Shown here: positions 79-18,559 of the stretch, piece by piece
Layout of the letters: each line of letters starts with the position of its first letter
How positions within the stretch are numbered: the first letter of the stretch is position 1
Origin: Nitrospinae bacterium RIFCSPLOWO2_12_FULL_45_22
Lineage (GTDB): Bacteria > 2-12-FULL-45-22
NCBI GenBank assembly: GCA_001803565.1
Contig: MHDQ01000031.1
Span: 1 to 34,317, forward strand
Reading direction: 5' to 3'
Length of the DNA: 34,317 nt
Made by a program: the position numbers and the translations under genes
Notes under the pieces: generated by a model
What the model was told of the DNA's origin: nothing
Database searches by the model: none
What the model saw: the letters and a program-made list of their open reading frames with translations, nothing else

Positions 79-1383
79 TTATTTAGTCACTAACTTTTGA
101 TAGAGTTCCAAATATTTGTCTGATATCTGATCCAGAGAATATTTTTCTATAGCCGTTATCCGGGAATTTTTACCAATCCTTTCTGCCAGCTCTTTATCCT
201 CGGTCAACAATAATATGGATTCTATAATTTGTTGAGGGTCTTTATATCGGATCAAAAGGCCATTTTCTAAATGTTCCAAGGCATCTTTAGCTCCCCCCAC
301 AGTAGTAGCAATTATTGGTAGCCCTGTAGCCATAGCTTCTAAAAATGCGTTAGACATTCCTTCAGACTGTGATGGGAGGATAAAGATATCACTGGCATGT
401 AAGTAGGGCGAAACATCTTTGATTTCTCCCGTAAATATTACACTCTCCTTTAATCCATTATCTTCTACCATTCTTTTAAGATAAGCAGCCTGGTTATCCT
501 CACGACCTATTAATACTAATAATAGATCGGGCTTTATCTTTATCAATTCTTTCCAGGCTTCTAATAGGGTATCGAGACCTCTTTTATGTCTCAAGGAACC
601 AATAAAACAGACCATCTCTTTTATGGGTAGGGACAGTTGTCTTTTGAATTCGTTCATCTTTTGTCTATCAGCTTGAGGGAATCTATTTAAATCTATTCCG
701 TTGGAGATGGATTTCAACTTGTCAGCCGGGAAGCCCAGTTCTAAGAGTTTTTCTCTGATTTCGCTATTTATACAGATGAAAATATCAACGGAATTTCTAA
801 GCATTTTTAGATAGAGTTTATGGAGAAAATATCTTCTAAGAACCTCAAAACAAAAGGAATCTGTAAGTTTCATAATAACCTTTTTCTTAAATCTCTTAGC
901 CATCCAGACCGTTACTATGGAAAAAGGCCTCGCCATAATATGACAATGAACAATATCAATATCCCGGCCTCTAAATAGGAAGAAGAAACTGATTAGAACA
1001 GTGAGGACTAAAAATTGACAACATTCCTGGATACAAAGATATAGCTGATAAAGTTTATAATACAGCGGCTTTTTCTGAGAAGATCCATTATTAATATGAA
1101 AGTTATCAAAAAGGGATGAGTAGGCATATTCAGATAGTTTAAATTTCTGCCGAAAAAATTTGCTGAAAGGTAATTTTATGAATTCTAAAATCCTGAATTT
1201 GCGGTAAACTGGTATACCATCAATATACTCAAACCCTCGTAAGCCTTTCCAACGTCGAGTAATCACACAAACATTTATCCCTTTAGTTTTAATCTTTTGG
1301 CTGAGCTGGTGGGCTTGTCTCTCAGCCCCACCAATCAGGGGATGGAAGAATTCTATAACCATAGCTACCCTGACCTTCTTCAC
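79..1383 (-). CDS. Glycosyltransferase family 4 (GT-B fold)
   Basis: C-terminal GT4 signature EGMSNAFLEAMATGLPIIATTVGGAKD; N-terminal VKKVRVAMVIEFFHPLIGGAERQ. The ORF track extends to 1428 via GTG, but a GTG at 1383 has AAGGGGG 8 nt upstream and gives a normal N-terminus. Confidence 0.9.
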   Translation of the reverse strand: MKKVRVAMVIEFFHPLIGGAERQAHQLSQKIKTKGINVCVITRRWKGLRGFEYIDGIPVYRKFRILEFIKLPFSKFFRQKFKLSEYAYSSLFDNFHINNGSSQKKPLYYKLYQLYLCIQECCQFLVLTVLISFFFLFRGRDIDIVHCHIMARPFSIVTVWMAKRFKKKVIMKLTDSFCFEVLRRYFLHKLYLKMLRNSVDIFICINSEIREKLLELGFPADKLKSISNGIDLNRFPQADRQKMNEFKRQLSLPIKEMVCFIGSLRHKRGLDTLLEAWKELIKIKPDLLLVLIGREDNQAAYLKRMVEDNGLKESVIFTGEIKDVSPYLHASDIFILPSQSEGMSNAFLEAMATGLPIIATTVGGAKDALEHLENGLLIRYKDPQQIIESILLLTEDKELAERIGKNSRITAIEKYSLDQISDKYLELYQKLVTK

Positions 1384-1399
1384 TACAGCTTCAACCCCC

Positions 1400-2674
1400 T
1401 TATTCTTTGCGAGCAACAATGATAGCACTACTGGATAGATTTCTTAACCATGTTCGTGAGAAACTATTTTTTAGCTTCAGAAATTGATTGATCCGCTTGG
1501 GTAGAATAGTTACACCTATCTGTTCCTCGATTTTAAATCCGGTCCTTTCTAGTTCTTGGGTAATAGAGAATAAATTTAAAGGTCTTAAAGGCCCTTCATT
1601 GGTTATATATGAATCTTTCTCAAGTAAGGTATTTTTAACCAGATAGTTAATGCCCGAGGAGCTAAAAAAGTTCCAGAGACTTAATATCAACCTACCATTA
1701 TTTTTTAGTACCCTATGTATTTCATGTAGCATTTTTTGGGGATAATGAATTAAATTTAGTTTTTTAAAACAGGTTACAACATCAAAGTAATTGTCTGTAT
1801 ATAAGATTTCGCTCAGTGTCCCAAGCTGAAAATTAATTTTTACCTTCTGCAATCCTAAATAATCTTTTCTCTCCTCCAAAAAATAATAAATATCTTCAGA
1901 AACATCATGAATATATACTTCAGATAAGGCTTTTCTCTTCAGAATCTCAAGAATATGATTTCCCGAAAAGCTGAGAATGTCTAGTAACACACTATTTACC
2001 TGGATATATTTTAGAGATATCTCAATTTCCTTATAAAACTCTGCTTCGGCAGATAGATTCTCAAAAAATTCTTCAGAAGGAGAAGTTGCTCTAATACCCT
2101 TACTCCTATAGTCCAATATTGCTTCTGGGTTCCATAAGTGGAAAGAAGGAAATCTTTTTTCCTTTTTTTTTGGGTAAGAATTGAAATGAATGATCTCATT
2201 TAAAGATCGGCGCTGAGGAGGAACAGGCTGTTTTTTGGGATAACCTAAAGCCACGGCGCTAACAATAAGAAAACTTTCAGGGACATTTAGGATCTTATGC
2301 AATATCCTTCGTTCACCACACGCAGCTATCCAAACACTGCCAAGTCCTTCCTCGTAGGCCACAAGAAGCATATTCTGGATAGCCGCGGCCGCACTCTGGA
2401 TATTGGCAAAATATTCTTTGTTAATATCTTTAGGATACAGCACAAAAATCAGGAGGGGTGCGTTTTGCAAAAAAGAAACGGCCTTAGCCTCTGTTACAAT
2501 CCTTTCCTTAATCCTTTTATCCGTGACCACGATAAATTCCCACAGTTGTTTATTGCAAGCAGAAGGCGCCCACTGGGCGGCATCAATTACCCTCAAAACC
2601 TTCTCCGTCTCTACCTCAACTTTTTCCTGAAAAGTCCTTATACTACGTCGAGATTTAATAGTATCCGTTATCAT
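1400..2674 (-). CDS. Fusion protein: N-terminal nitroreductase-family domain plus C-terminal SAM-methyltransferase-like domain (copy A)
   Basis: N-term RRSIRTFQEK...APSACNKQLWEFIVV...GLGSVWIAACGE (FMN nitroreductase pattern); C-term YFDVVTCFKKLNLIHYPQKMLHEIHRVLKNNGRLILSLWN (class I methyltransferase motifs). Confidence 0.85.
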   Translation of the reverse strand: MITDTIKSRRSIRTFQEKVEVETEKVLRVIDAAQWAPSACNKQLWEFIVVTDKRIKERIVTEAKAVSFLQNAPLLIFVLYPKDINKEYFANIQSAAAAIQNMLLVAYEEGLGSVWIAACGERRILHKILNVPESFLIVSAVALGYPKKQPVPPQRRSLNEIIHFNSYPKKKEKRFPSFHLWNPEAILDYRSKGIRATSPSEEFFENLSAEAEFYKEIEISLKYIQVNSVLLDILSFSGNHILEILKRKALSEVYIHDVSEDIYYFLEERKDYLGLQKVKINFQLGTLSEILYTDNYFDVVTCFKKLNLIHYPQKMLHEIHRVLKNNGRLILSLWNFFSSSGINYLVKNTLLEKDSYITNEGPLRPLNLFSITQELERTGFKIEEQIGVTILPKRINQFLKLKNSFSRTWLRNLSSSAIIVARKE

Positions 2675-2677
2675 TCT

Positions 2678-4039
2678 TTACCTGTCTCTTAACAGATTCA
2701 TAAATACGGGATCAGCATATATCCTTCTTTCTTCTAAAAATAGTAAAATCAATTTAAGAAACAGGCTGCAATACCTGGATTCAATGATATTTTCTGTAAC
2801 CTCACCCGTGTAAATATTTACCCGGTTTACATATCCACGAGCTGTATGATGATATTTGATTTGGCCATTAAAAATCTTTATCGCAGCCTCTTTATAAATC
2901 TCTTTGCCCGTTAGTTCATATAATTTCATCAGACTAATGGCAAAATCTGTTTCATCATCAAAATAGCTCTCCTCTGGTGTTTCGGTTGTAGGAAGCAACC
3001 CGGTCTCCTTTGATTGCCTGGACAGATAAAACTCAGCAATCCTTTCAGCAGTCTTTATATACCTTCCATCGCCGGTAGACCAGGTATAATCACAGCAAAA
3101 ATCTACAACAGCATAAGACTTAGAAGTTAGCGGCCCCCGAACAAACCGATCAGGGCTTTCAATTATTGTCCACTGATAAACCCCTCCATTTTCATCAATA
3201 AAATATTTGGTCACTCCATCAAACCAGTTTATCAAGGCATGGTTGAGTGGGGGTTCATGAGAAAGACTAAATAAGGCCAAAACCGCAGCCGCCATGCAAT
3301 AATTATCTTTAGTAAGATAGGCTGTCCTATGCGGATTCTTATTCCCTGACCAGTTTTTGGGTATTAGTTTGCTGGCAAAGATCTGGCTAGGAAAAAGCCC
3401 GGTTTCCCGGAAAAATTCTGAATCTAACCAAGGGTTTAATAATTGATTGGCCTTATCTAGATATTTCCTATGACCCGTTAGCCGATAAAGATCAATCAAC
3501 TGCTCAATAAATATCCCATTGGTGGGTTTAGCCACGGGGAGTTTATATTTTACTCTGGGGTAATAAACACAAGCTAGGTTATTTTTGGTAAAAAACAATG
3601 CATAGATCTTATCTATCATAAAATCAATAAAATCTAATAATCCTTGATCCCTTTTAATCTCATAACATTCAATTAAGCCTAATAAAAGGTCAGAGTATTC
3701 GAAGCTCAGAGTGGAGTATCCCAGGATGAGGCGCCTTAAGCGATGCTTTAGAGTAACCCCAGGCACCTCCCCCAATTCATAAAGGATGATATTCCCTTTT
3801 TCAAAAAAATCCTGCGCCAAATTAATGTGCCTTTCCACATAATCACCCTTACCACACCAGAGAAAAAAGGGGAGATAATCACCTAAGTCTGTCAAGATGT
3901 TCTGCGAAGAAAGGGGTTTACCGGTTAGGGCATCGATTTTAAAGAAAGGGAAACCCTCAGTGCTTGAATAGTCATGCTCAAACCAATTAATTATCTCATC
4001 TCTGCATTGAACCAGTAAGGGCTTATCTATTCCATCCAT
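2678..4039 (-). CDS. Alpha/alpha-toroid (six-hairpin glycosidase/epimerase-like) protein, 453 aa
   Basis: Repeating helical-hairpin pattern (YLDKANQLLNPWLDSEFFRETGLFPS, YIKTAERIAEFYLSRQSKETGLLPTTETPEESYFDDETDFAISLMKLYELTGKEIYKEAAIKIFNG). Confidence 0.6.
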   Translation of the reverse strand: MDGIDKPLLVQCRDEIINWFEHDYSSTEGFPFFKIDALTGKPLSSQNILTDLGDYLPFFLWCGKGDYVERHINLAQDFFEKGNIILYELGEVPGVTLKHRLRRLILGYSTLSFEYSDLLLGLIECYEIKRDQGLLDFIDFMIDKIYALFFTKNNLACVYYPRVKYKLPVAKPTNGIFIEQLIDLYRLTGHRKYLDKANQLLNPWLDSEFFRETGLFPSQIFASKLIPKNWSGNKNPHRTAYLTKDNYCMAAAVLALFSLSHEPPLNHALINWFDGVTKYFIDENGGVYQWTIIESPDRFVRGPLTSKSYAVVDFCCDYTWSTGDGRYIKTAERIAEFYLSRQSKETGLLPTTETPEESYFDDETDFAISLMKLYELTGKEIYKEAAIKIFNGQIKYHHTARGYVNRVNIYTGEVTENIIESRYCSLFLKLILLFLEERRIYADPVFMNLLRDR

Positions 4040-4042
4040 AAG

Positions 4043-5605
4043 TTAGGCATTTGTACTTAAAGATTTAGAGAAAGAAAGCAGTCTTTTTTTTACAAAGTTA
4101 GATATAGTATTTTTGAATATCCTCCGAAGGAATTTAGAATGAATTATTCTAGTGAGTAACACTATAAAGATTAATGATAAATAAAACCTCGCTAATTTAC
4201 TCTTTCTTTTCTGAACTAAAAAATCTATAAAATTAGTAGGTATAATGCCTATTATATTGTCTACAGCATAACCACGCATACAATAAATCAAGGTATTTAA
4301 ATATAGGTTATGCCTTTTTAAGAATAAGTGCCTGAGGTCATCATAATAATCTAGATTGGAACCTGAATCCTTTATCCCTTGAATTATCTTATCTTTTAAG
4401 GCGCGATTATATAGTTCTGTGCCCGGGAAAAAAACCAGATTAAATATCTCCAAAAAAAAGGGCTTAGGTATTTTTCTAATCAATTGGATAGTCTCTATTA
4501 GATCGTTATCGGTTTCATAAGGATTGGATATTATGAATTGATAGAAAGGTAAATCCATTTCACCATGGTATTTATTTAATATGGACGTTGCTTTTATTAC
4601 CACCTCAGTAGACTGCAAGCGTTTATATACATTTCTATTGAAAGATTCACTGCCGGTTTGTATACCCATAATGATTCTATTTAATTTGGCCTTTAATAAT
4701 AATTCGAGCTTATCTTCCTGAACATCTCCTGGATGAACGTTACACTGGAAGGGCATGTCAATTTTATCTCTATATTCCTCAACGAACATTTCCAATTCTT
4801 CCATATCTCTTAAAAAGAATGAATCATCGCTTATCCACAACTGACGTGCGAACGGGAATTTATCTTTTAATTCTATTATCTCTTTTAGCACCAGGCTCAG
4901 GTTTCTTTTTCTAATGATCTTACCTTCATTTTTATACAAATCATTTAAAAACCGGTTAGCACAAAAAGCACAACTATAGGGGCAGCCTCGTGCAGTAATA
5001 ATTAATATCGAACCAGTATATATTTGATCAGGATTATTTCTAAAATACTCTTTTCCCTCGAAAAATCTTTCGTTTTTAAGAATAATTTGGGTATCCAGGT
5101 CATAATCAGCAAAGGGATAATTATCTAAATTCCCTGTTAAAGGTCGAAGGCTATTTCTAATTACTTTCCCGTTGGTCCTGAACCAAAAATTCTGGGTATC
5201 TAAATAATCCTTGGAGCTACTCATCTTTTCCACAAGTTCTAAAACAGCTTCTTCTCCTTCACCAAGGCACACCATATCAGCATATTTTAAGCAATCTTCA
5301 GGACAGATAGTCGCATGCACTCCTCCCCAGATTATAGGTTTAGCAATATATTGTTTTATATATTTGATAATCTGGATCCCGCGTTGATAGGAAAATGCCA
5401 TAGAAGATATACCTATTAGATCTGAATCTTTAACCAAAGAAAACAAATCTTTGAGGACGCTCTTAGGGTAATTCTTAAAATTTGTTTCCTCGGTAGGCAT
5501 AAAAACCAGTTGCGTACTATGGCCTTTTGATTTCAGGTAAGAAGAAATCGATCTCATGCCATGACTAATGATGGTATTATCGATAGAGATTAATGTTATT
5601 TTCAT
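4043..5605 (-). CDS. B12-binding-type radical SAM protein
   Basis: GGVHAT...CLGEGEEAV in the N-terminal Rossmann region and TARGCPYSCAFCANRF (CxxxCxxC). The track start is 5632; MKITLISIDN at 5605 looks the more natural start. Confidence 0.88.
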   Translation of the reverse strand: MKITLISIDNTIISHGMRSISSYLKSKGHSTQLVFMPTEETNFKNYPKSVLKDLFSLVKDSDLIGISSMAFSYQRGIQIIKYIKQYIAKPIIWGGVHATICPEDCLKYADMVCLGEGEEAVLELVEKMSSSKDYLDTQNFWFRTNGKVIRNSLRPLTGNLDNYPFADYDLDTQIILKNERFFEGKEYFRNNPDQIYTGSILIITARGCPYSCAFCANRFLNDLYKNEGKIIRKRNLSLVLKEIIELKDKFPFARQLWISDDSFFLRDMEELEMFVEEYRDKIDMPFQCNVHPGDVQEDKLELLLKAKLNRIIMGIQTGSESFNRNVYKRLQSTEVVIKATSILNKYHGEMDLPFYQFIISNPYETDNDLIETIQLIRKIPKPFFLEIFNLVFFPGTELYNRALKDKIIQGIKDSGSNLDYYDDLRHLFLKRHNLYLNTLIYCMRGYAVDNIIGIIPTNFIDFLVQKRKSKLARFYLSLIFIVLLTRIIHSKFLRRIFKNTISNFVKKRLLSFSKSLSTNA

Positions 5606-5627
5606 CCTAGTTCCCCGAATATCTTTA

Positions 5628-5790
5628 ACCATTCACCGCAGAGCACGCAGAGAAAACATAGAAAAATTACTCTTGAAACTTATGTACTAATTGTCTGATA
5701 CCATCCTTGGGCACTGTGACATTGAAGTTGATTAATAAGCCCACATTATGTCCCATCTCAGCGTTTTCTGCGCTCTTCGCGTTGAACGGT
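5628..5790. repeat. Imperfect inverted repeat pair (about 27 bp arms) bounding the GxxExxY remnant
   Basis: Left arm accattcaccgcagagcacgcagagaa (5628-5654) versus reverse complement of right arm accgttcaacgcgaagagcgcagaaaa (5764-5790); about 20 of 27 positions match. Confidence 0.55.
5667..5790 (-). pseudogene. C-terminal remnant of a GxxExxY-family gene
   Basis: Hand translation of the minus strand in the intergenic gap reads ...NAKSAENAEMGHNVGLLINFNVTVPKDGIRQLVHKFQE*, resembling the GLLINFNV..KDGI..(I/L)V C-terminus of GxxExxY proteins. The frame is closed by an upstream stop and lacks the rest of the gene. Confidence 0.55.
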
Positions 5791-5804
5791 TATTAAAATC
5801 TTTA

Positions 5805-7307
5805 TCAAAATCGGAAAATAGGGATCCCGATCATTTTATTAAAAATATCCCGATCTCTTCGCTCAAAAGTCTTATGGAGATAGCTAACGGAAAAATAACT
5901 TAAAATCCCTACCAAAATAACCAGGATTAAGCTGTATACATCTACAATATATTGCCTGGCGAAGAGGAGAACCATCACCATAATACCACTGTTTATAGCC
6001 ATTTTGAGGAAAGTACCCCAGGGAAATTTTATATCGATATATCTTTTAGTCAGTATAAATTGCAAGACGGCCTTAAAGACCAATGAAGACCCGGTAGCAA
6101 AAGCCACACCCGCAATCCCAAAGTATCTGACTAAAATTATATCCATTATCAGATTATATAAGATGAAGACCCTGCTATATAGCCCGATTTGGGGTTTCTC
6201 CAAAATTTGCCAGATGAGGCCAACAGAAAAGGCAATGGCATTAATCCCATAGACTATCATGAACATAATAAAAATTGGTAAAGTTTCTCTATACTTAGGT
6301 ACTATATAGGTTATCATTTCACTACCGAGGAATACTACTCCTGCAGTCAAAGGGAATAGAAAAAAGGCTATAAATTTATTTAATAATTGGAACATATAAC
6401 ATAATTCTGCCTGGTCATTATTCTGGGTGTATCTTCTGATAAAAATGGGAGTTATTACTGAGTCGGCGACCTTTGCCGGAGTCCAATTAATAATGCGAAA
6501 GGACATTAGGGCAGCAAAAGAATAAAGCCCCACCGCCTTGGGACCCAAAAAATTACTTATTATATAAATATCAATAGGTATCTCATAGCCCATATAGCTT
6601 AGTTCATTAAAATAGCTTAACAAACCATATTTGAAGACTCTTTGGATAGAATCTCCTTTTTTTGACTGACTGGGTAATAGAAACACATAGGCGCGAATGA
6701 CTAATAAATATAGAACAAATGTAATCAAATTAACCAAAAGGGCCGCCCATATCAACCCTTTAAGCCCATAACCCTGTCGCAGCGCAAAGTAATATAGCCC
6801 TCCCTGGAGTATAGAGTATATAAACAACATGAGGTTTTCATATCCTTGAAGAAGAAGAGAGTTTAAAATATATCTTAAGCTTCTAATCTGGATGGCAAGG
6901 ATAATAACAAAGAGAAAAATAGAGAAGTAATCTATTATTGGAGGGGCCTTTAAAAAAAGGGCAATAGGGCTAATACAAAACCAGATCAAAACTACGCAGA
7001 TGGTGAAAGCTACAGTTTGACATAATAGGCCATAAAAAATAAGTTTTTTGAGGATAGTATAATCTTTATTTTGATAATACTCCGGAACATACCGTTCTAT
7101 AACAGAGGGTATTCCAAAAGAGACGAACATGGAAATTAATGTTAAAGCAGCAAATAACAAATTATAAATCCCATACTCCTCAACCACCAATCTATTTAAA
7201 ATATAAATGGCAATGAAAAGAGAAACTATGGCAGAGATACTTCTCCCCACATAATTAAAAATAGTATTTCTAAATCCGTGATTGTATAAATCTTCCTGTG
7301 CAAACAC
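5805..7307 (-). CDS. Polysaccharide flippase (Wzx/MATE-like), multi-spanning
   Basis: N-term NTIFNYVGRSISAIVSLFIAIYILNRLVVEEYGIYNLLFAALTLISMFVSFGIPSVIERYVPEYY is typical of oligosaccharide flippases; about 12 hydrophobic segments. Confidence 0.9.
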   Translation of the reverse strand: MFAQEDLYNHGFRNTIFNYVGRSISAIVSLFIAIYILNRLVVEEYGIYNLLFAALTLISMFVSFGIPSVIERYVPEYYQNKDYTILKKLIFYGLLCQTVAFTICVVLIWFCISPIALFLKAPPIIDYFSIFLFVIILAIQIRSLRYILNSLLLQGYENLMLFIYSILQGGLYYFALRQGYGLKGLIWAALLVNLITFVLYLLVIRAYVFLLPSQSKKGDSIQRVFKYGLLSYFNELSYMGYEIPIDIYIISNFLGPKAVGLYSFAALMSFRIINWTPAKVADSVITPIFIRRYTQNNDQAELCYMFQLLNKFIAFFLFPLTAGVVFLGSEMITYIVPKYRETLPIFIMFMIVYGINAIAFSVGLIWQILEKPQIGLYSRVFILYNLIMDIILVRYFGIAGVAFATGSSLVFKAVLQFILTKRYIDIKFPWGTFLKMAINSGIMVMVLLFARQYIVDVYSLILVILVGILSYFSVSYLHKTFERRDRDIFNKMIGIPIFRF

Positions 7308-7331
7308 TATATTTATTAGATACTCCTCTAT

Positions 7332-8861
7332 TTACTTTAGGCTTAACATCCTCTCCTTAATTTGGGACAATACACCTGCTATTTTAACCTCAAACAGAAA
7401 ACTCCAAAGATTCAATTTTTTCCGCGATTCAAAAATAGCTTTCAACCACCACGATCTTAGGGGAAGTTCTCTATAACTCCTTAATATACCCTTCTTAAAG
7501 GCAAAATTTATATAGAAATAAAACTTCGGTTTCTTTAACCAGGGAAACCTATTCAGGCCTAAATATCCACTGGTGTCTTCAAGATCATTATTCGCCCACT
7601 CTCTCAAGGAATCGGGTGGTGTAAACCCTTTATTTATGCATTCCTGGTAGAGGGCTGATCCGGGATAAGGGCGAAATATTTGCGGGCCTAAGATAAAGTC
7701 CTTGGGATTAAACCTCACTAATTTCCCAATAAAGTTTAAGGTTTTCAAGGTATCTTCTGGTTCTTCCCCAGGCAAACCCATCATAAAAGAGTACGCAATA
7801 ATTATGCCATATCTTTTGCATAGAGTAGCCGCATGTCGGACCTGGTTGAGATTAATACCTTTTTTTAAGAGATTTATGATCTTTTCTGAACCAGATTCCA
7901 CACCAATGCTTATCCTTGCACATCCTAAGTTGGCCATTCTCTGGACAAGCGTCTCCGATAAGTAACCTTCATGGAAAAAATCGGCCCGCGCAGTACAGTA
8001 CCAGGTAATTTTGTATCTCCTCTCCTCCAGCCCATCTAAAAATCTAATAAATCTTTTCTTATCCAGGAGAAAATTATCATCCCTAAATACGATATGCCTT
8101 ACCTGATACTTGTTTATAACCATATCAATTTCGTCCAATATCCTATCAGCGGTCTTCCCCCTATACCTCTTAAGAGATTGAGCAAGACTGTTATTTATAC
8201 AAAAAGTACAGTCATAAGGACAACCAACACCAGTATGTAGTATGATACTCTTTTGTTGCTCCCCAAAAAAAAACCTGGTACCGCCAAAATCCCTTGTCAG
8301 ATAACTATCCATGGGTAATAAATCAAAGTAAGGGAAGGGGAATTTATTTATATCCGCCAATTCATTCTGAAGATTTAAAAGGAATTTCCCATCTTTCTTA
8401 TACCCCAACCCGGGTAATGAGGGGATTTGATGGCTTTGTCTAAGAGATTTGGTCAATTCCAGGCAGCTATACTCCCCTTCACCTATTACTACTAAATCCG
8501 CTAACGGATCACTGCAGGTCTGTTGGGGGAATAGAGTTGCATGGATACCTCCCCAGACTAAAAGGGTATTTGGCGACATTTTCCTGATATATTCCGCAAT
8601 ATCTATTCCCGAACTAACCTGGGAAGTCATGGCTGATATTCCTGCATATAGGGGCTTTTTAAGCAAATAATTCTCAATATCTTTCAAATAATCTTCACTA
8701 ATCGAAGCATCAATGATCTTCACCTCAAAACCTTCCTCATGCAGGACTGTGCCTATAGATAATAATCCTAAAGGAGGGGATATCTCATGAAAATTCCTTT
8801 GATAATCCCATCCCTTGAACAGCTTTGGTGCAATTAATAGGATCTTATTATTGCTACTCAT
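7332..8861 (-). CDS. B12-binding-type radical SAM protein
   Basis: PPLGLLSIGTVL..., GGIHATLFPQ...DLVVIGEGE, GVGCPYDCTFCINN (CxxxCxxC). Confidence 0.9.
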   Translation of the reverse strand: MSSNNKILLIAPKLFKGWDYQRNFHEISPPLGLLSIGTVLHEEGFEVKIIDASISEDYLKDIENYLLKKPLYAGISAMTSQVSSGIDIAEYIRKMSPNTLLVWGGIHATLFPQQTCSDPLADLVVIGEGEYSCLELTKSLRQSHQIPSLPGLGYKKDGKFLLNLQNELADINKFPFPYFDLLPMDSYLTRDFGGTRFFFGEQQKSIILHTGVGCPYDCTFCINNSLAQSLKRYRGKTADRILDEIDMVINKYQVRHIVFRDDNFLLDKKRFIRFLDGLEERRYKITWYCTARADFFHEGYLSETLVQRMANLGCARISIGVESGSEKIINLLKKGINLNQVRHAATLCKRYGIIIAYSFMMGLPGEEPEDTLKTLNFIGKLVRFNPKDFILGPQIFRPYPGSALYQECINKGFTPPDSLREWANNDLEDTSGYLGLNRFPWLKKPKFYFYINFAFKKGILRSYRELPLRSWWLKAIFESRKKLNLWSFLFEVKIAGVLSQIKERMLSLK

Positions 8862-8882
8862 CAGAACATCCTTAAATTCTAT

Positions 8883-10493
8883 TTATCTCTCTGAATTCAA
8901 GATCTCATATAGTAAAATTTTATGCCGAGGTTGTTTATTCGACTTATATATCAGTTTTAAAATATCTTTAGGGGCCTTGGTATCATCTAAAAGAAAGGCT
9001 AATTGGGGAGAGAGCATTGGGGTAGTCTGTTCGTCTATTGCAATGTACTGAACTTTATTATAACGGGCATAGAAGATGGTTTTTGAAAAATCCTCTTCAT
9101 AGGGTGATAGTATCGGCACCCCGCCCCCGGCATAATAAGAAATCTTACTATCTGTAGTCATAATTATGGGATTAGGGGGTAAATTTTTTCTTATCTCCTC
9201 TCCTATATCCCTGACCCAGGTATCGGGTTTTGCCCGATTAGGATTAAAAATAAACAAAACTGACGGCAATAAAAATATAACTGCGATAATGGCCAACCCC
9301 TTGTTTGATTGTAAGCTATAGCAAATTCCAAACGATCCCTTTAGGGTCTCATGAACCCAAGCTGCCAGCTCACTAATGCCCTTAGCAGCCCACAATGCTA
9401 CTATAGGGACCATAGGGAGTAAATGTCGGGGCTTAGGGAGGAAGAATAAAGAGAATAGGATCATGGGATACGCAAAAAAGCTTAAGAGGTACAATTCTGC
9501 CTGAAGGCGATCCCGCGACCACGCCTGCCGAAACAGTCCCACCAGAGAAAGAAAGACTACCCAGGGTAAAGCCATATCAATTAGGTAGATAAAACTATCC
9601 TTAAAGAATTTTTTAAAATTTCCCCGATCAAAATTGGTCATTAGAGAAAGACGGCCCTTTTCCTTTATATGCCTACCTACTTCGGAATTAGGGTCGTAAA
9701 GGGCCTCACTAAGGGTCTGCCTTCCATCTTTTGTAAGGGATAGCCATCCTTCACTGGTATCTTTCAGTAAAAAGGCCTGTAGACCGTATGATTTGCCACT
9801 CAATGTCCAGGTACCCAATTGATTATGTAAGAAGATTAGATAAGGGGAGGCGACTGCAAGAAAGATAATAATAATACTTACTCCTGCCCTGATAAGGTGG
9901 GCTAAAGTTGCTTTCCAAACAAAGCGTTGGTTGATCAAATACCAGAGGAAGAATATAGCCAATCCTAAAATCCCCTCTGGCTTAGTCAGATAGGCGAGAC
10001 TAAAAGATATAGTGGTAAAGAAAACGAGAGAGGTTCTTTCTAATACCAGCCAGCCACAGTATATACCTAAACAAAGGAGAAACAGGTAGAGGGATTCTGA
10101 CAAAACCTGGGTAGAAATAAAGGCCAAATTGCGATCAAAAATGATAAATAAAGAACTAACGAGTGCTACTCTTGGCCCATATAGTCCCCGGGCTAGAAAA
10201 AATATGGGGATTATCAAGAGAGACCCGGAAACCAGCGAAATTATTCTCGCTATTGCTTCATAATTATCCGAAAAGATGGAAAGAGTCTTAATCAAAAAAG
10301 GATAGAAGGGATGATGATGAGTGCTGCGGAAGGTCTCGCCATAATTTGAAGAAAAGATATGCTTGGCCAGATCGATAAATGTTATGCCATCATTGGCTAT
10401 CAAAGGATGGAAATGACTCTCATAGATGCGAACGAGGAGACTTAAGGCTATAAGCCCTGACAGTAAAACTAAACTGCCTGATCTTCTACACAT
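8883..10493 (-). CDS. GT39/ArnT-PMT-like membrane glycosyltransferase (GT-C)
   Basis: NDGITFIDLAKHIF...THHHPFYPFLIKTLS...STQVLSESLYLFLLCLGIY with repeated TM segments. The track extends to 10571 (TTG) but MCRRSGSLVLLSGLIALSLLVRIYE (ATG at 10493) starts directly before TM1. Confidence 0.85.
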   Translation of the reverse strand: MCRRSGSLVLLSGLIALSLLVRIYESHFHPLIANDGITFIDLAKHIFSSNYGETFRSTHHHPFYPFLIKTLSIFSDNYEAIARIISLVSGSLLIIPIFFLARGLYGPRVALVSSLFIIFDRNLAFISTQVLSESLYLFLLCLGIYCGWLVLERTSLVFFTTISFSLAYLTKPEGILGLAIFFLWYLINQRFVWKATLAHLIRAGVSIIIIFLAVASPYLIFLHNQLGTWTLSGKSYGLQAFLLKDTSEGWLSLTKDGRQTLSEALYDPNSEVGRHIKEKGRLSLMTNFDRGNFKKFFKDSFIYLIDMALPWVVFLSLVGLFRQAWSRDRLQAELYLLSFFAYPMILFSLFFLPKPRHLLPMVPIVALWAAKGISELAAWVHETLKGSFGICYSLQSNKGLAIIAVIFLLPSVLFIFNPNRAKPDTWVRDIGEEIRKNLPPNPIIMTTDSKISYYAGGGVPILSPYEEDFSKTIFYARYNKVQYIAIDEQTTPMLSPQLAFLLDDTKAPKDILKLIYKSNKQPRHKILLYEILNSER

Positions 10494-10542
10494 AATAAGA
10501 AATGTTCCTGGTATTTTTCGAGGGTCTAAGTGACAGGACGCT

Positions 10543-11913
10543 TCAATCACCTGAAGAAATCTTTTCTGCAATAATGCAGGTTGAAGAGGATATCAAGGGC
10601 AAATTGATTTTTTTGGTTGCTTTGGCCAAAAGAGAGAGGAGGCTTAAAGCAGGTCGAGAAATATGTTTTAATATAGAAAGATTCCGACCATGTCGTTTAA
10701 GATAACCATTCAGTCTTTCTTTATAAACTGTTAATTCCATGGGAAAAAAGAAAAGACTCCTTAATTGAATAGAAAAACTTATCTTTTTAAGCAATTTTTT
10801 TATTTTCAAGGTAGATACAGGTTCAAAAGGGCCTGAACTTAAAAAGGCATCCTCAATCCTGTTGATCTTTAAGAGCTTTTCTATACCCTGATAAAATAGG
10901 CCGTAAAAAGATAGCTTATTTTTGCAGAAAATAATAAGTTTTCCTTCGGGTTTCAATGCCCTTTTCGCTTCAGAAAAGATAGTCTGATTCTTTAGGATAG
11001 GGACTTTTTCCAAAGAAAATAAAAATAAAATCATATCAATAGAAGAACTTTTCAAGGGAAGATAGGCATCACTAACAAAAAAATCCATTTTTGTCGTCTT
11101 GGCGTTGACAAAAATGGCCGCTTCCCTACTCAGTTCCAAGTCAATCAGATGATGACCGGTTAAGGCCGAGGAGAGAGGTCTAAGTAGCGTTCCGTCATAG
11201 CTAAAAACAGACAAAATATGCCCCCTTTTTTTAGGCAAATAGGATTGAACCAATGAAGTAATCTTATTAACCTCTTCTTCGGAATATATTTCATAGTCTT
11301 TTCCGAAATAGCTGGAACGGGACAAAAATTTCTGGTGTTCTCTTATTTCAGAGAGCGTATATTCTGAAGATCTAAGTTTAATAGGGAGAGAAGGGGCACC
11401 TTTTCCATTTTGGAATTCATTAAAATGAACTATATCCCTTATATCTTTTTTAGGAGGGAGTGGAGGATTCTCGGCCGATTCTCCTAGCATTATGATACAT
11501 AGGGGTTTTAAATGATTAGGTACACCTAGGAGTTTAGATACTTCTTCCTCTTTCCCAAAACCTGCCAGCCAGCAAGCCCCTAAGCCTAGTTCACATGTTC
11601 TTAAGAGTATATTCTGGACCGCAGCCGATACTGATTGGATATTGGCATAGTGTTCCTCATTAAAGGTAGCATCATACAGCACTACAATAAGGCAAGGGGC
11701 ATCCATGATTTGCTTTTGAGCCCCTGCCTGTTTGACCATTCTTTCTTTCATAGATTCTTTGTCAACCACTATGAACTGCCAATGCTGTCGGTTAGAGGCA
11801 GAAGGGGCCATGGTTCCGGCTTTTATAATTTCCATAACTATCTCTCTAGGAATGGCCTTGTCCCGAAATTTTCTAATGCTTCTTCTTTTTTCTAACGCCT
11901 CGCTTAACTCCAC
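10543..11913 (-). CDS. Fusion protein: nitroreductase-family domain plus SAM-methyltransferase-like domain (copy B)
   Basis: N-term RRSIRKFRDK...APSASNRQHWQFIVV...GLGACWLAGFGK; C-term SSIDMILFLFSLEKVPILKNQTIFSEAKRALKPEGKLIIFCKN. Colinear with the 1400..2674 protein. Confidence 0.85.
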   Translation of the reverse strand: MELSEALEKRRSIRKFRDKAIPREIVMEIIKAGTMAPSASNRQHWQFIVVDKESMKERMVKQAGAQKQIMDAPCLIVVLYDATFNEEHYANIQSVSAAVQNILLRTCELGLGACWLAGFGKEEEVSKLLGVPNHLKPLCIIMLGESAENPPLPPKKDIRDIVHFNEFQNGKGAPSLPIKLRSSEYTLSEIREHQKFLSRSSYFGKDYEIYSEEEVNKITSLVQSYLPKKRGHILSVFSYDGTLLRPLSSALTGHHLIDLELSREAAIFVNAKTTKMDFFVSDAYLPLKSSSIDMILFLFSLEKVPILKNQTIFSEAKRALKPEGKLIIFCKNKLSFYGLFYQGIEKLLKINRIEDAFLSSGPFEPVSTLKIKKLLKKISFSIQLRSLFFFPMELTVYKERLNGYLKRHGRNLSILKHISRPALSLLSLLAKATKKINLPLISSSTCIIAEKISSGD

Positions 11914-12908
11914 CTTACCCTACCCCACATCTTGCCAGCATTCATACCTACTCGTCGTAAGTAAAATAATGCAGGTATAACACTAAAGATGGATACCAGA
12001 TCTATTTTTATCTTTTTTCTTCGGCTGATTAAGAGTCTGAATTTCTTTGTGCCTAAAAACATCCCTCCTAATAATAAAAAATATAGAAGTAGTAGGGATA
12101 GGGGTATTATCATTAAATTTATAGATCCTAGTAAAGTTAATACTGATATTCCTATTAGGGGCCATAGTAAAGAGAAAGGGTCCCTCGTTATCTTAAGTAT
12201 GCTGGGTTGTCTAACATTATAATCGGCTATGCCCCGGCGAAAACTCCATTTAAAAAAATCCCATATGTTATCCCTAGTATTATGGAAGACATAAGAGTTG
12301 ATATCATATTTAACCCTTAGGCCCTTTTCTCTCATACGGTTTATAATGTCTTCATCTTCGCATCCATAGATCAATCTTTCGTCAAACCCTCCAACACCTA
12401 TTATTGCCTCTTTTTTAAATATGGCGTTACAAGTGGATAATGTATTTACACTCCCATCAACCTCTTTTAAATGGGCATCTAAACCAATAGCCCCACCGGC
12501 AGGGAGCCCTAAACAGGCAATACATTTTCCTAAATATTTACTCCCGGGAGGTGGATAGGCATTACCACCCACCCCCGCTATTTCTCCGTTATTAAAATTC
12601 CCCACCAGTATCCTCAACCAATCCTTTGGGACGCGGCAATCAGCATCAGTAAATGCTATTAGGTTGTATTGAGCATGAGCCACACCGATATTGCGAGATA
12701 AGGCAAAATTTTTCTCGGGCGAGTTTATCAATTTAACTCCGGGATATCTCTTAACAATGGAACTAGTAGCATCTATTGAGCTATCCACAACAATGACCTC
12801 ATACTTTTCTCGAAGATACTCTATACTCAGTACCGATTCTAGGCAGCCTCCGATGTTCCTCTCCTCATTATAGGTAATAATTACGACACTAACGGAGGGA
12901 TAATGCAA
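11904..12908 (-). CDS. Glycosyltransferase family 2 with C-terminal membrane segments
   Basis: VSVVIITYNEERNIGGCLESVL...VIVVDSSIDATSSIV...IAFTDADCRVPKDWL; hydrophobic C-terminus. Confidence 0.9.
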   Translation of the reverse strand: MHYPSVSVVIITYNEERNIGGCLESVLSIEYLREKYEVIVVDSSIDATSSIVKRYPGVKLINSPEKNFALSRNIGVAHAQYNLIAFTDADCRVPKDWLRILVGNFNNGEIAGVGGNAYPPPGSKYLGKCIACLGLPAGGAIGLDAHLKEVDGSVNTLSTCNAIFKKEAIIGVGGFDERLIYGCEDEDIINRMREKGLRVKYDINSYVFHNTRDNIWDFFKWSFRRGIADYNVRQPSILKITRDPFSLLWPLIGISVLTLLGSINLMIIPLSLLLLYFLLLGGMFLGTKKFRLLISRRKKIKIDLVSIFSVIPALFYLRRVGMNAGKMWGRVRWS

Positions 12909-12909
12909 C

Positions 12910-14412
12910 TTAGTCTATCCGCAAAATGTAGTTCAGGAAGGGGTTTTGAGCTTCTAGCCTGATCTTTAAAAATCCTAAGGCCCTATCACCATAAAAGATA
13001 GAGTCACTCAGGGCTATTATTCCCAAATCTTCATAAGAAATGGCCCCGGTGCTCGAGATTTTAATACGTGTATTTTGATCCTTAAGGATCAAGGCATTGT
13101 TATTTATCTCAATGCCATAGGGACTTTTATAAGCAAAGAATAGTTCATCTTTTTGGAGTTTAGTATTTACAATTATACAATCTCTCTGAAAGTCATAATG
13201 TCTGTCCCCCGTTTCCTTTGCCGAGAGTAATTTATACTTTAATCCTCTCAGCCTATGAAGGCCCAGAGGGCGAAGAATATCTAGCCACCTCGCGGCCTTT
13301 AAATTGTAATAGCTTGGATCGAAAAAAAACTTCATGCCGTCCCTCGTCCAAAGGGCAAATAATTTGCTATGCTCACTATCAGTAACCACAAGATAACTAT
13401 CCCTTCTAATCACCTTTAGGTTGTTTTGGTCAATCCCCATTTTAGAAGAGTTATATTCATCTCCTAAATCGTATGCTTTTACATGGTCATAGGCCTGGCA
13501 AATTTTATATAGATCAGTACAAAGATGGCGTTCATCAGGCAGATGTTGGATATAGCCAATGCCATTTTGATACCCATCTATCACTTTCTCCAATATGCTA
13601 TTTGCCTGGGGAATTAAAGGACTGAATATTTCAAAGCCATCAAGGATCAACCATCCCAATTGGCGGGTATTGTAAGTTCCACCAAAACTCCCATCCGGAT
13701 AGATCAACTCATTACAATTCGCTATAAACCCTTTAGCGGCCTCTAAAATTTTGGGTTCAGGCATTATCAAATAAAAATTTCCCAAGATGCTAAGGGTCAA
13801 GGACGAATAACCAAGGTCTATACCTTTCCTCTCGGTAAAGAATCCATCTCGGTAGCCTGAGCTTAATACACGATCCAATTTTTCCTGGGAGCAAGCTAAG
13901 AACTTTTCCTCCTTGGTCAACTCATATATTTTTAACAAAGTAAGAGCGGCCATAGACTCCTGGTTGGTCAAGTATTTTTCCCTATTTTTACATAACCACC
14001 GCCCTGCTCTTATTAAATGATTCAGCCAATCTTCTTGTACTCCTATGATATTCATAGAATGAGAAATAGCATAGGTAGAGTAGGCTGTAGCAGCATAAGA
14101 ATGATCATATCTCGTATACTCTGGAAAAGAACCATTCCTATTCTGAATCTTACACCAGAAATCAATCCCAGCCTTAATTCTGAAGATTAGCTCATCTTCT
14201 TTTCTCGATCTGATTCCCTTATCATACACCCAAGCCAGAGAAGCTACGGCCTCCTGCCACCGGGCATTACAAAATTTTTTTTTACCTTGCCAATGAGGAT
14301 AAAAGAAACAGCCCTTGCTCAAACTATTGGCCCCTACATCCTGGAGAGAAAGGAGTCGGGGCCAAGAATCCTTTACCCATTGCAAATATAATTCTTTCCT
14401 CTTTTTCCACAT
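12910..14412 (-). CDS. Alpha/alpha-toroid protein with C-terminal beta-rich domain (polysaccharide lyase/heparinase-like architecture), 500 aa
   Basis: N-terminal helical-hairpin repeats (RIKAGIDFWCKIQNRNGSFPEYTRYDHSYAATAYSTYAIS, YGG-like YPDGSFGGTYNTRQLGWLILDGFE) followed by a strand-rich C-term (DSYLVVTDSEHSKLFALWTRDGMKFFFDPS). Confidence 0.55.
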   Translation of the reverse strand: MWKKRKELYLQWVKDSWPRLLSLQDVGANSLSKGCFFYPHWQGKKKFCNARWQEAVASLAWVYDKGIRSRKEDELIFRIKAGIDFWCKIQNRNGSFPEYTRYDHSYAATAYSTYAISHSMNIIGVQEDWLNHLIRAGRWLCKNREKYLTNQESMAALTLLKIYELTKEEKFLACSQEKLDRVLSSGYRDGFFTERKGIDLGYSSLTLSILGNFYLIMPEPKILEAAKGFIANCNELIYPDGSFGGTYNTRQLGWLILDGFEIFSPLIPQANSILEKVIDGYQNGIGYIQHLPDERHLCTDLYKICQAYDHVKAYDLGDEYNSSKMGIDQNNLKVIRRDSYLVVTDSEHSKLFALWTRDGMKFFFDPSYYNLKAARWLDILRPLGLHRLRGLKYKLLSAKETGDRHYDFQRDCIIVNTKLQKDELFFAYKSPYGIEINNNALILKDQNTRIKISSTGAISYEDLGIIALSDSIFYGDRALGFLKIRLEAQNPFLNYILRID

Positions 14413-14541: not shown

Positions 14542-16851
14542 TTAAAACTTAATTTTGGCGAGAGTGATTATCAGCATTGTTCCCCAACTTATAATAAGCA
14601 ATGGAAATAACCAGAATGGATTATATATGAATTGTACTTTGTTTATTCCTTTTTTTATCTTGATTGCCCTAAAAATGAAATTCCCGCCAAATACCTCCGT
14701 GGGGATATCATTAATATTGGCAATCCAACTTCTCGACCAACGGTCAGTTATCAGCAACCACCCATCTTCTGGACAGTTAACTTCGAACAGGAGTCTTTCC
14801 GGCATATATTCCATAACTTTCGCTTCAATCGATATGGCTGGAGGAAGCTTCGAGATAATCTCGGCCTGGCCCGCAGGATTTTTTGTTTTTTTTCTGCTGG
14901 GTAATGCTTCCGGTTCGTGAATAACTATAACTGGTTTATGTAACGTTTCCGTGCGGCTTACCCATGAAGCATAAGATTCGCTTGAAACATCCGCTAAGGC
15001 CACGGTGCTGGAAAACCAGGTTCTGTTAGCTCCCGTCGCCATGCCAGCCAGTATGGTGTTGCTGGATATCATATTTGAATAAAAGCTGTTATTCGAATCG
15101 ACATAGCTTTTCAGGGTTGGTATCTTAAGTACAAGATTGAAATTATTGAGAGAACCAGACTCTCTTAAAAAAGCTTTCGGCGTAAGATTAACACTCGAAA
15201 TGTGCTGGCGCTCTGCCTCTTTCCACCAGCGGTTCGGCACACACATAATGGGATGAGAAATGTATGCATTCAGAAAAGCGTCCGATCCGGCTAGCCCGAT
15301 TAGCATCATCCCCAACAATGCTGGCCGATTACGATCCATAAACTTCCACAATGTGGCGGAGATAAATAGAACACCGAGCCATATCCACAACAGGTGGAGA
15401 TTTGCGCTTCGGTATGCCACCAGTCTTTCAATCCCCTCTTCCACCCAGATCATTGTGATTAGATATACCGTAACTGCAGAAATACCTGTAACCGCTGAGA
15501 CGGTAAAAAACCTTCGCCAAATCGTGAGATCGCGCTTTTGCTGGGATAGATAAAAATCCCTGGTGGCATGAACGGCCAGAACTGTGACGCTAAATATATA
15601 TAAAGCCCGGAATATGCTTGCGTGCCGGAAATATCGCATGGGAAGTAATAGGTCATATAGCCATCCCCTGAAAGGTAGGAACGCCCCCATGCCGCACGCG
15701 ACTGCTAAAAGCCCCATCGCCAAAAGCCAGCACCGCCACTTATCGCGGGAATTGTTAAAAATGGACAGGAGAGCCAGGACAAAAATAGCTGAACCCACAA
15801 AAACACTCATGCTTGAACAGTCGTTATAGCCCCATTTCCGCGTTCTAAGCTGGAGTATGGGAAAGAGCGGACTCGCGAATGTAGCCAGGGCAGCGGGGTG
15901 AAGGGCGTTAGACTTAACCGCGACTTCCCTTGGTAGGGGGTTAGACCTATCTGTATATCCACTCCCTTCGTAAAAAAAGCTTACATATACCGGGGACAAG
16001 ACTGTTGTTCCTGCTACAAAAAATAAAGCCACCGCTATAGCTACAAATTTAAAATCCAACCTACGCTCAGAGCCTTTTTCTGGATTTTCGCCGTGCGGTA
16101 GAATTGCAAAGTCTTTCAATCCCTGGAAAGCCCATCTGCCGAAAGCCCATAAAAGCGCAAAAATCCCGATAATCAGAACCAAACCTGGGTATCCCCCTAA
16201 AGCCGATAGTCCCCAAAAAGCTCCCGCCTCCAAAGATAGGAAAAGACGTCTTGCCACAAGGGCTCCATCCATTCTCCAAATAATGAAAGGGAGGAACGAC
16301 ATAGCGTACAAAAGAGAGGTATGTTCCGCGTGACCCGTGTAAAAGCCGGAGAACGTAAAACCGAGGGCCGCAATCACCCCTCCCCATGGCGGCGACTGTA
16401 AATGCCGCGATAAAGCAATTATTCCGAGTCCCCCTAGCCACCAAATGAAGAGCCAATAAAACCTGAATCCGGATTCACTTCCTCCCGTTAAGAGTCCAGA
16501 AGCGATAGTTAATGGTGAAAGCGCCCCTACCTGTGGGTTGATAAAAGCCGGAGTTCCGCCACTGCTCCATGGATCCCATAACAGCAACTTTCTGGCACGG
16601 GAAAAGTCCGCAAGCAATATGTAATATGGTGCATAATAACTATCTGCATCCCAGATGGGGGAATACAATCCCATAAGCAGATGATAATTGGCCATAAGAA
16701 AAAAAAGAGAAAATAACAAGGTCGCCAGCCACCATTGGTTTTTGGTAAATATTGGCTTTCTGCTGATTGATTCGACAAGACTTGAAAAAGTTCCAGAAAG
16801 TCGTCCGGAAGCAACCCATATTGTTTTCATAGATAATGCCAAAATCTTCAT
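14542..16851 (-). CDS. YfhO-like / uncharacterised multi-spanning membrane protein (possible GT-C)
   Basis: WDADSYYAPYYILLADFSRARKLLLWDPWSSGGTPAFINPQVGALSPLT is the N-terminal luminal pattern seen in YfhO-type proteins; about a dozen TM segments and a soluble C-term. Confidence 0.8.
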   Translation of the reverse strand: MKILALSMKTIWVASGRLSGTFSSLVESISRKPIFTKNQWWLATLLFSLFFLMANYHLLMGLYSPIWDADSYYAPYYILLADFSRARKLLLWDPWSSGGTPAFINPQVGALSPLTIASGLLTGGSESGFRFYWLFIWWLGGLGIIALSRHLQSPPWGGVIAALGFTFSGFYTGHAEHTSLLYAMSFLPFIIWRMDGALVARRLFLSLEAGAFWGLSALGGYPGLVLIIGIFALLWAFGRWAFQGLKDFAILPHGENPEKGSERRLDFKFVAIAVALFFVAGTTVLSPVYVSFFYEGSGYTDRSNPLPREVAVKSNALHPAALATFASPLFPILQLRTRKWGYNDCSSMSVFVGSAIFVLALLSIFNNSRDKWRCWLLAMGLLAVACGMGAFLPFRGWLYDLLLPMRYFRHASIFRALYIFSVTVLAVHATRDFYLSQQKRDLTIWRRFFTVSAVTGISAVTVYLITMIWVEEGIERLVAYRSANLHLLWIWLGVLFISATLWKFMDRNRPALLGMMLIGLAGSDAFLNAYISHPIMCVPNRWWKEAERQHISSVNLTPKAFLRESGSLNNFNLVLKIPTLKSYVDSNNSFYSNMISSNTILAGMATGANRTWFSSTVALADVSSESYASWVSRTETLHKPVIVIHEPEALPSRKKTKNPAGQAEIISKLPPAISIEAKVMEYMPERLLFEVNCPEDGWLLITDRWSRSWIANINDIPTEVFGGNFIFRAIKIKKGINKVQFIYNPFWLFPLLIISWGTMLIITLAKIKF

Positions 16852-17017: not shown

Positions 17018-18559
17018 TTAATGGGTGAACAGTTGCTCTCTTAACTCCTTTTTGGCCACCCTCTCCACAGCCGTTATTAATCCCATGAGAGACCAGACGT
17101 AGGGAAAATAGAATGCGGAGGAGAATAAAAAAGCGATAAGAACACCTACAAAGCCCAAAACCAACCCATAAAGTAAAGCGAACCACAATGCGTCCTCCAT
17201 CCTTCTCAGCATAGCAAGGGGACCTTTCAGGTGGAAGAACAGGAGAGACAGAAAAGAGGCCAGACCCAGGATTCCCGTTTCACCCAAGGTTTCCAGATAG
17301 ATATTGTTAACTACCTGGGGCATATGAGCCCCCTGTATCCAGGGGGGCATATTGGCCTCAGTGAACAATTCAGGTGAATTATAGAAGTAATTCATAAAAT
17401 AATTACCTACCCCTACTCCCAGGAAGGGATGTTTAAAGAACATGATCAAGGCTGCTCCCCACGAGACGAGCCTTTGAAAATTGGAGAAGTCATGCGGATT
17501 AAATATGGTGACAAACTGGTTCTTGAATACCCGGGTCAAGGTGGGAAAGGAAAGCAGATTCAACAGCACATGCAATAAGAAGAAAAGAAAAGAGACACCG
17601 ATGACCGCCGATACAAAGCTTTTCACTCCCGCCTGTCCGGAGAGAGAAGGCCTCCTACTTCTCTGCAATAGCCAGGCTAGACCAAATATTCCCGGCAGGG
17701 AAATTATCACTGTCCGGGAAAAGGTTACTATTATTCCTAGAGTGGTGATAGCAAACGAGGCGTTGAACCATCCTGGCCTGACAAAATACTTTCTATACAC
17801 AATGAGCACCAGACTAAGAGGAAGGATACTTAATAGGTAGGTAGCAAAAGGGGAGGGTTCAGTAAAAACCGATGTCCCTCTCATCAGATGCTTGAAATGG
17901 GTAAGATGTCCAGGAAATCTGGCATTCAACACATTGGATTCCACGGCATAGGGCAGAAAAAAATAACTTCCCACAAACTGATATATGGCAAAGGCAGCAG
18001 CTAAAGTAGCACTGAGCATCCACACGCCAATGGCTCTCTCTATATCCTTCCGCTCCCTCAACAGATTGACGGTTACATAATATGCCAGTATTCCCACCAA
18101 CATCCAGACCATCTGGGTAATGCTCTTATAAAAGGGTATGTTCCTGCCAAATGTAGTATATTTGGTGTAGTCAAGGGGGATATGATAAGACTGGAAAGTG
18201 GAGAGGACATTTATCAGCATAAAGATGAGTAAGGGAATATCGATTGGCGTGGTCACTAGTGCTGCATCTCTACTCTTAATTACTCCTGCCCGCAACACCA
18301 AGGTTATAATTAATATCAGAGTTAGAGCCTGGCTAGGCTGTACCGAAAACCTTACTACTTCCACCACCCCTAAACGGGTGAAGGGCAAAAAGAATATCAG
18401 CAAGAGAAAGACGAAATGAGGTTGGCAAAGCGAGAGGAGAAATACAGAAATTATGAAGACAGCCACCAGAAAATACAACCACTCTTCTGAAGCTATCGAG
18501 GCCCCTATCAGGCAACCAACTGGTATCGTTACCAGAAATTGATACCTGCTTACACCCAT
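17018..18559 (-). CDS. O-antigen ligase/polymerase-like (Wzy_C/WaaL) membrane protein
   Basis: FKHPFLGVGVGNYFMNYFYN...HMPQVVNNIYLETLGETGILGLASFLSLL is the WaaL/Wzy periplasmic-loop pattern. Confidence 0.9.
   Translation of the reverse strand: MGVSRYQFLVTIPVGCLIGASIASEEWLYFLVAVFIISVFLLSLCQPHFVFLLLIFFLPFTRLGVVEVVRFSVQPSQALTLILIITLVLRAGVIKSRDAALVTTPIDIPLLIFMLINVLSTFQSYHIPLDYTKYTTFGRNIPFYKSITQMVWMLVGILAYYVTVNLLRERKDIERAIGVWMLSATLAAAFAIYQFVGSYFFLPYAVESNVLNARFPGHLTHFKHLMRGTSVFTEPSPFATYLLSILPLSLVLIVYRKYFVRPGWFNASFAITTLGIIVTFSRTVIISLPGIFGLAWLLQRSRRPSLSGQAGVKSFVSAVIGVSFLFFLLHVLLNLLSFPTLTRVFKNQFVTIFNPHDFSNFQRLVSWGAALIMFFKHPFLGVGVGNYFMNYFYNSPELFTEANMPPWIQGAHMPQVVNNIYLETLGETGILGLASFLSLLFFHLKGPLAMLRRMEDALWFALLYGLVLGFVGVLIAFLFSSAFYFPYVWSLMGLITAVERVAKKELREQLFTH

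Follow-up and report, generated by a model that had tools for sequence, protein, structure and literature searches.

Two genes recur side by side in bacterial genomes from several phyla. One encodes a fusion protein (NTR-MT) that joins a flavin mononucleotide (FMN) nitroreductase domain to a methyltransferase-like domain of class I, and the other encodes a cytosolic enzyme of predicted (alpha/alpha) toroid type. We are highly confident that together they form a conserved genetic and functional unit. We studied the pair in contig C31 (MHDQ01000031.1; 34,317 nt, the whole of which we call the window) from the 3.67 Mb draft genome of Nitrospinae bacterium RIFCSPLOWO2_12_FULL_45_22. The window carries toroid A (2678..4039) with NTR-MT A (1400..2674), and toroid B (12910..14412) with NTR-MT B (10543..11913), all on the minus strand. 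Across genomes, the recurring unit is a flavin enzyme, a cytosolic toroid and a GT4 glycosyltransferase, in which either the flavin enzyme or the family of the toroid can be exchanged for another. The pair probably tailors a glycan inside the cell. The fuller interpretation, a two-enzyme glycan-tailoring cassette that usually includes GT4, lies in a Wzx/Wzy cluster and is present here in two divergent copies, is one to which we give even weight for and against.

The toroid and NTR-MT genes are linked in distant genomes

A contig scan with both window fusions recovered four loci in other lineages, and whole-genome profile searches added nine more. Twelve of these outside loci are complete (L011, L012, L013, L036-L040 and L045-L048), counting L048, where a contig end removes the N-terminus of the fusion. 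The thirteenth, L014 in genome G005, has a fusion cut by the contig end. The loci span at least three other phyla. Together with the window they represent a few independent lineages (the window's phylum, the phylum of G002, Coatesbacteria and the Verrucomicrobiota/Lentisphaerae group) and were compared as draft contigs with shallow alignments. Full flanks on both sides are available in about 8 of the 13, L014, L036, L038, L047 and L048 being limited by contig ends. The window's own phylum is represented by two genomes only, and close relatives contribute no information.

At 12/12 complete outside loci the toroid gene directly adjoins the fusion, and at L014 the truncated fusion begins within the end of the toroid gene. 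An earlier reading of the window from its sequence alone (the sequence-only reading) had proposed that neighbourhoods of the fusion be examined for toroid genes, and the enrichment is complete. The two open reading frames (ORFs) overlap at all 13 loci, by 1-77 nt as called. The toroid gene lies downstream of the fusion in 12 loci and upstream in L014 and in window copy A. Because either gene order is found, the linkage is independent of order.

The fusion is rare and patchily distributed across the genomes searched. Carriers number 6/388 in the phylum of G004, 7/346 in one of that phylum's classes, 1/82 plus one truncated copy in the phylum of G002, and 1/14 in the phylum of G003. The window's genome contains no fusion other than NTR-MT A and B, and the low counts bear out the earlier description of a rare gene type. 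We also ran the reciprocal search, with the short toroid family (A4) against the same 346 genomes. Both genes occur in the identical seven genomes, and the other 339 have neither; simple counting, uncorrected for shared ancestry, puts the chance of identical sets at 9e-15. Within the phylum of G002, full-length members of the group-1 toroid family (A5) occur in the two fusion-bearing genomes and in four in which no fusion was detected. A search of 388 genomes from the Verrucomicrobiota-like phylum detected no group-1 toroid, a weak negative as no positive control was available there. For toroid A, 82 genomes yielded a single 22% match at 9.7e-5 and no close homologue. Viral contigs and plasmids that we searched held no relatives.

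A GT4 gene adjoins the pair in 8/10 Verrucomicrobiota-group loci, directly after the toroid gene, and the typical order there is Wzy, NTR-MT, toroid, GT4, AAA, Wzc, Wza, Wzx. The GT4 gene of window copy A (79..1428, minus strand; PF00534, 5.7e-39) comes after NTR-MT A, and the two ORFs overlap by 29 nt. Toroid A and NTR-MT A are 3 nt apart.

The same proposal had expected a B12-binding radical S-adenosylmethionine (SAM) gene within about five genes of the fusion. Enrichment for this class is nil. At E<1e-4, no homologue of the window's four B12-binding radical SAMs was found in any of the 13 outside loci, about 8 of them with complete flanks, and in the same searches the four detected one another at 1e-26 or better. 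We therefore rejected the radical SAM as a member of the module. The earlier suggestion of an undescribed co-conserved system thus stands for the toroid and NTR-MT, with GT4 as a frequent third gene, and falls for a module that includes a radical SAM.

A second flavin enzyme can replace NTR-MT

Both window fusions belong to the FMN nitroreductase family, with PF00881 scores of 103.9 bits for NTR-MT A and 103.5 bits for NTR-MT B against a cut-off of 23.5 (1.3e-29 and 1.8e-29). Both also carry a class I SAM methyltransferase domain, with PF08241 scores of 46.8 and 33.2 bits against a cut-off of 21.2 (4.9e-12 and 8.2e-8). When NTR-MT A was aligned with the 13 other fusions, the FMN-binding Arg motif RRSxR was present in both window copies and in nearly all homologues. 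The NTR profile matches many FMN nitroreductases, among them 4DN2 at 3.6e-38 and the enone reductase 4qlx. The canonical methyltransferase motif I (xDxGxGxG) is not retained. Sequences like LDILSFSG, LSVFSYDG or LDVLSFNG stand in its place in 13/14 fusions, and the L012 fusion has lost even this variant (LSFNG/FSYNG-type). We take the variant to resemble the FSYTG form of RlmI-type enzymes. The fused domain may or may not be an active methyltransferase.

The four genomes of the G002 phylum with a group-1 toroid and no detected fusion have a different partner beside this homologous toroid. At L064 (G415), L065 (G417), L066 (G414) and L067 (G418), an FrhB-type flavin/Fe-S oxidoreductase (PF04432, 3e-33; PF04422, 1e-22; 4Fe-4S domains) precedes the toroid, GT4 directly follows it, and no NTR-MT was detected. 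These data indicate that an FrhB-type oxidoreductase can take the place of NTR-MT beside the toroid and GT4, and the exchange is an independent clue to a flavin-dependent redox step. FrhB-type enzymes include BciB. BciB itself uses flavin adenine dinucleotide and 4Fe-4S clusters to reduce the C=C bond of a vinyl group (PMC7242693). An AsnB gene lies beside the unit in 3/4 of these loci, and GH39 and carbamoyltransferase-like genes recur.

The toroids are predicted to be cytosolic and resemble several carbohydrate-active folds

Ten toroids checked by hydropathy have no signal peptide or transmembrane segment; in the first 60 residues of toroid A, the best 19-residue window reaches 0.42 on the Kyte-Doolittle scale. 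Since none of the ten carries a hydrophobic export segment, these proteins differ from secreted lyases and hydrolases. Toroid A matches PF01532 at 5.9e-9, with weak matches to PF07470, PF03663, PF07944 and PF06662, and has no C-terminal beta domain. Toroid B, with a helical toroid and a C-terminal beta region, matches no Pfam family. It does match the profile of the L014, L011 and L012 toroids (hhalign 89%, E 2e-6; phmmer 2e-8).

The predicted fold is an (alpha/alpha) toroid, from the model and Foldseek for L014, from Pfam only for toroid A, and more weakly for toroid B. In the L014 model, the helices fall within residues 102-384, mostly at a predicted local distance difference test (pLDDT) score of 70-90, and are flanked by two low-confidence or beta-rich parts. 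Foldseek matches to this model are mainly toroids, with E down to 7e-5, including GH88, GH76, GH105, epimerases, the polysaccharide lyase BACCELL_00875 and the glucuronate dehydratase 9nwf. The toroid B model (pLDDT 41) likewise matches mainly GH88, GH76, GH105 and epimerase toroids in the PDB.

Among PDB sequences, the group-1 toroid profile best matches the beta-D-glucuronate dehydratase BcGDH (9o4u), at E 0.0037, or 0.026 when toroid B is left out, and no other falls under E 0.1. BcGDH requires E74, R78, N176, N177, W178, F181, Y229, R285, Y289 and Y354 for activity (PMC12269599). In the alignment (offset 5), a conserved NW of the group-1 toroids corresponds to N177-W178, a conserved GR to R285, and an invariant Tyr falls near Y229. 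The short Verrucomicrobiota toroids do not match BcGDH, and toroid A has no significant PDB sequence match and none to BcGDH. Eight toroid members gave no DUF2264-type Pfam match at E<=10; we take DUF2264 to correspond to GH154. The resemblance to BcGDH, drawn from sequence alignment, is best treated as a lead rather than as family membership.

Proposed glycan tailoring and alternative explanations

We propose that the toroid works intracellularly, where its substrate would be either a sugar in the lipid-linked repeat unit or the donor of that sugar. By analogy with the weakly similar beta-D-glucuronate dehydratase, it would abstract a proton next to the carboxylate of a uronate-type sugar and then eliminate, as a dehydratase or lyase does, or epimerise. 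The FMN domain would reduce the intermediate, perhaps at a C=C bond, or transiently oxidise it, to yield a deoxygenated or epimerised sugar. The methyltransferase-like domain might methylate the sugar or aid its binding, GT4 would then extend the chain, and the modified sugar would be exported afterwards. If the toroid eliminates and a flavin enzyme then reduces, either flavin enzyme could accompany it. We regard this eliminate-then-reduce chemistry as a tentative suggestion. More speculative still is a specific version, in which the toroid would dehydrate a uronate of the lipid-linked repeat unit to a C=C bond, NTR-MT or, in other lineages, FrhB would reduce it as a dedicated ene-reductase, and the fused domain would add a methyl group. 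Such a path would replace the usual modification at the nucleotide-sugar stage and constitute a new route, on the growing glycan, to deoxy- or epi-uronic sugars.

Several observations weigh against this interpretation. Three mutually non-alignable toroid families accompany one NTR-MT family, and a single chemistry for all of them is therefore an assumption. The structure models were built from window and related-locus proteins only, from shallow alignments, and reach a mean pLDDT of 41 and 53. The match to glucuronate dehydratase is weak, and in structural comparison the better scores go to GH88, GH76 and lyase toroids. The set of essential dehydratase residues that we checked (N177, W178, Y229, R285, Y289) is not retained in full: the catalytic acid Tyr289 has no counterpart in group-1 toroids, and toroid B keeps only the Asn and the Tyr, with W replaced by Q and the aligned Arg absent. 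Finally, in L011, L012 and L013 the pair stands isolated among housekeeping genes, outside any recognisable exopolysaccharide (EPS) cluster.

The toroid could instead be an intracellular glycosidase, or a trimming or editing hydrolase of GH88, GH76 or GH47 type, with NTR-MT modifying another sugar of the same repeat unit and that shared unit being the sole reason for the linkage. We consider this possible, though doubtful. The toroid A Pfam matches fit it, at 5.9e-9 to GH47 and weakly to GH88, GH76 and GH127, as do GH88 and GH76 among the top Foldseek matches. However, the pair also occurs as the isolated two-gene cassette of L011-L013 and is perfectly linked in the 346 genomes, which suggests a shared reaction path. 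Cytosolic hydrolysis of a biosynthetic precursor would also be wasteful unless it served editing.

An activity like that of D-glucuronyl C5-epimerase is unlikely. Its flavin partner would support a redox step, and a weak match to PF06662 (C5-epim_C) recurs in toroid A (0.008), L064 (0.0035) and L067 (0.073). All of these matches lie under the Pfam cut-off, however, and cover 30-44 positions, possibly a generic toroid hairpin.

It is also improbable, slightly more so, that the pair modifies a cofactor or lipid and occurs in EPS clusters by chance. The housekeeping surroundings of L011, L012 and L013 would be expected if this were so, whereas eight Verrucomicrobiota-group loci have GT4 adjacent, most of them with Wzy, Wzc or Wza nearby, and both window copies lie inside a Wzx/Wzy cluster. 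These contexts argue for the tailoring of a glycan by the toroid and NTR-MT.

The two stretches of the window share one paralogous gene class

The sequence-only reading described two gene sets on either side of a flippase, and their gene types and orders are as it gave them. One runs 14412->7332 as toroid, GT2, NTR-MT, GT39/PMT and B12-binding radical SAM. The other, with its start at 5632, runs 5632->79 as B12-binding radical SAM, toroid, NTR-MT and GT4. The sequence-only reading took the sets to be paralogous and suggested, as one of two possibilities, that an ancestral module had been duplicated. Paralogy holds for one of the four classes. The two NTR-MTs are true paralogues, 29% identical across 429 alignment columns (E 3e-45). 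Toroids A and B, in contrast, belong to different sequence families, with no BLAST similarity and an hhalign profile-profile probability of 1.3%. The glycosyltransferases are of different families (GT4 against GT2 and GT39). Radical SAMs A and B share a generic likeness of 28% identity, and each is closer to another window gene, A to that at 32050 and B to that at 27191, than to its supposed counterpart.

Even for NTR-MT, a sister relationship of A and B is neither shown nor rejected, because long branches keep the trees from resolving it. Where the A/B pair is absent from the best tree, its approximately unbiased (AU) test gives p 0.44; other trees support it at 60/56 and, in one NTR-domain tree, at 77/74. 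NTR-MT A scores 190 bits against the L011 fusion and 147 bits against NTR-MT B. Thus a four-gene ancestral unit of toroid, NTR-MT, glycosyltransferase and B12-binding radical SAM, duplicated in the window, is very unlikely: both sets hold all four classes and the 77/74 tree unites A and B, but the toroids and radical SAMs do not fit, and radical SAM membership is refuted by the outside loci at present sampling. We dropped whole-module duplication on these grounds.

A Wzx/Wzy polysaccharide cluster surrounds the pair

A minus-strand polysaccharide cluster fills nearly the whole window. It encodes Wzx, a Wzy-type protein, GT4, GT2 and GT39 glycosyltransferases, AsnB, an epimerase, a Gfo/Idh protein, four B12-binding radical SAMs and one SPASM radical SAM. 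With flippase, polymerase and glycosyltransferases all present, it is a Wzx/Wzy exopolysaccharide cluster. The Wzx-type flippase (5805..7307; PF13440, 9.2e-14) separates the two gene sets, and the Wzy/ligase-type polymerase (PF04932, 2.3e-14) lies at 17018..18559. In the second set, the GT2 gene (11904..12908; PF00535, 1.9e-25) stands between toroid B and NTR-MT B and overlaps the latter by 10 nt. The GT39/PMT-type gene (8883..10571; PF13231, 4.8e-10) overlaps NTR-MT B by 29 nt and is an operon member outside the conserved unit.

Radical SAMs A (4043..5632) and B (7332..8861), both with PF04055 and PF02310, are neighbours outside that unit as well. The other two B12-binding radical SAMs lie at 27191-28585 and 32050-33507, and by similarity the four form the pairs 4043/32050 and 7332/27191.

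GC content differs between parts of the window, at 37.5% in 79-14412, 43.0% in 14542-33507 and 29.4% in the radical SAM gene at 32050, which suggests that the cluster is of mosaic make-up. A DDE transposase fragment (33711-34316, plus strand; PF13701, under its cut-off) adjoins the cluster at the contig end. Beside toroid B, positions 14542-16851 (minus strand) encode a 769-residue protein with no Pfam or NCBIfam match, which reads as large and hydrophobic and is probably a membrane protein.

Comparison with known systems

A search of the open-access literature, subscription papers being outside it, returned no description of the toroid and NTR-MT combination. The compact unit of a flavin enzyme and a cytosolic toroid, usually with GT4, marks a polysaccharide modification for which we found no open-access description, and as a two-protein system it is small enough for in vitro testing.

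The nearest comparison for the flavin enzyme is the FMN nitroreductase superfamily (4DN2, BluB-like proteins, 4QLX), which has in common the NTR domain with its RRSxR and APSxxNxQ motifs. NTR-MT differs in its fusion to a methyltransferase-like domain and its tie to a toroid. The FrhB/FdhB-type oxidoreductases of EPS clusters occupy the same place beside a toroid and GT4 in four genomes, but they are an unrelated family with Fe-S clusters and no methyltransferase domain.

Klebsiella cps loci, which are Wzx/Wzy capsule clusters, have been described as carrying the same two classes of flavin enzyme, with genes for nitroreductase (n=2) and for coenzyme F420 hydrogenase (n=1) (PMC4616057). By this likeness of reported gene class, such clusters could connect these enzymes with polysaccharides whose structures are known. 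Following this lead, we considered a pyruvyl- or lactyl-ether role with a MurB-like reduction and rejected it, as only L036 has a pyruvyltransferase beside the pair. That gene, a polysaccharide pyruvyl transferase (PF04230; L036:5517-5990, plus strand, genome G135), lies directly after the toroid.

BcGDH (formerly GH154; 9O4U/9NWF, PMC12269599) has in common with the group-1 toroids the toroid fold, the aligned Asn-Trp and Arg285, and a nearby Tyr. It works in glycan degradation together with GH88, whereas the toroids described here accompany a flavin enzyme in clusters devoted to biosynthesis. A class of toroid familiar chiefly from the breakdown of glycans thus probably serves to build them here. 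Known Wzx/Wzy exopolysaccharide clusters provide the same surroundings of Wzx, Wzy, Wzc, Wza, GT4 and an initiating transferase, to which the toroid and NTR-MT pair is an addition.

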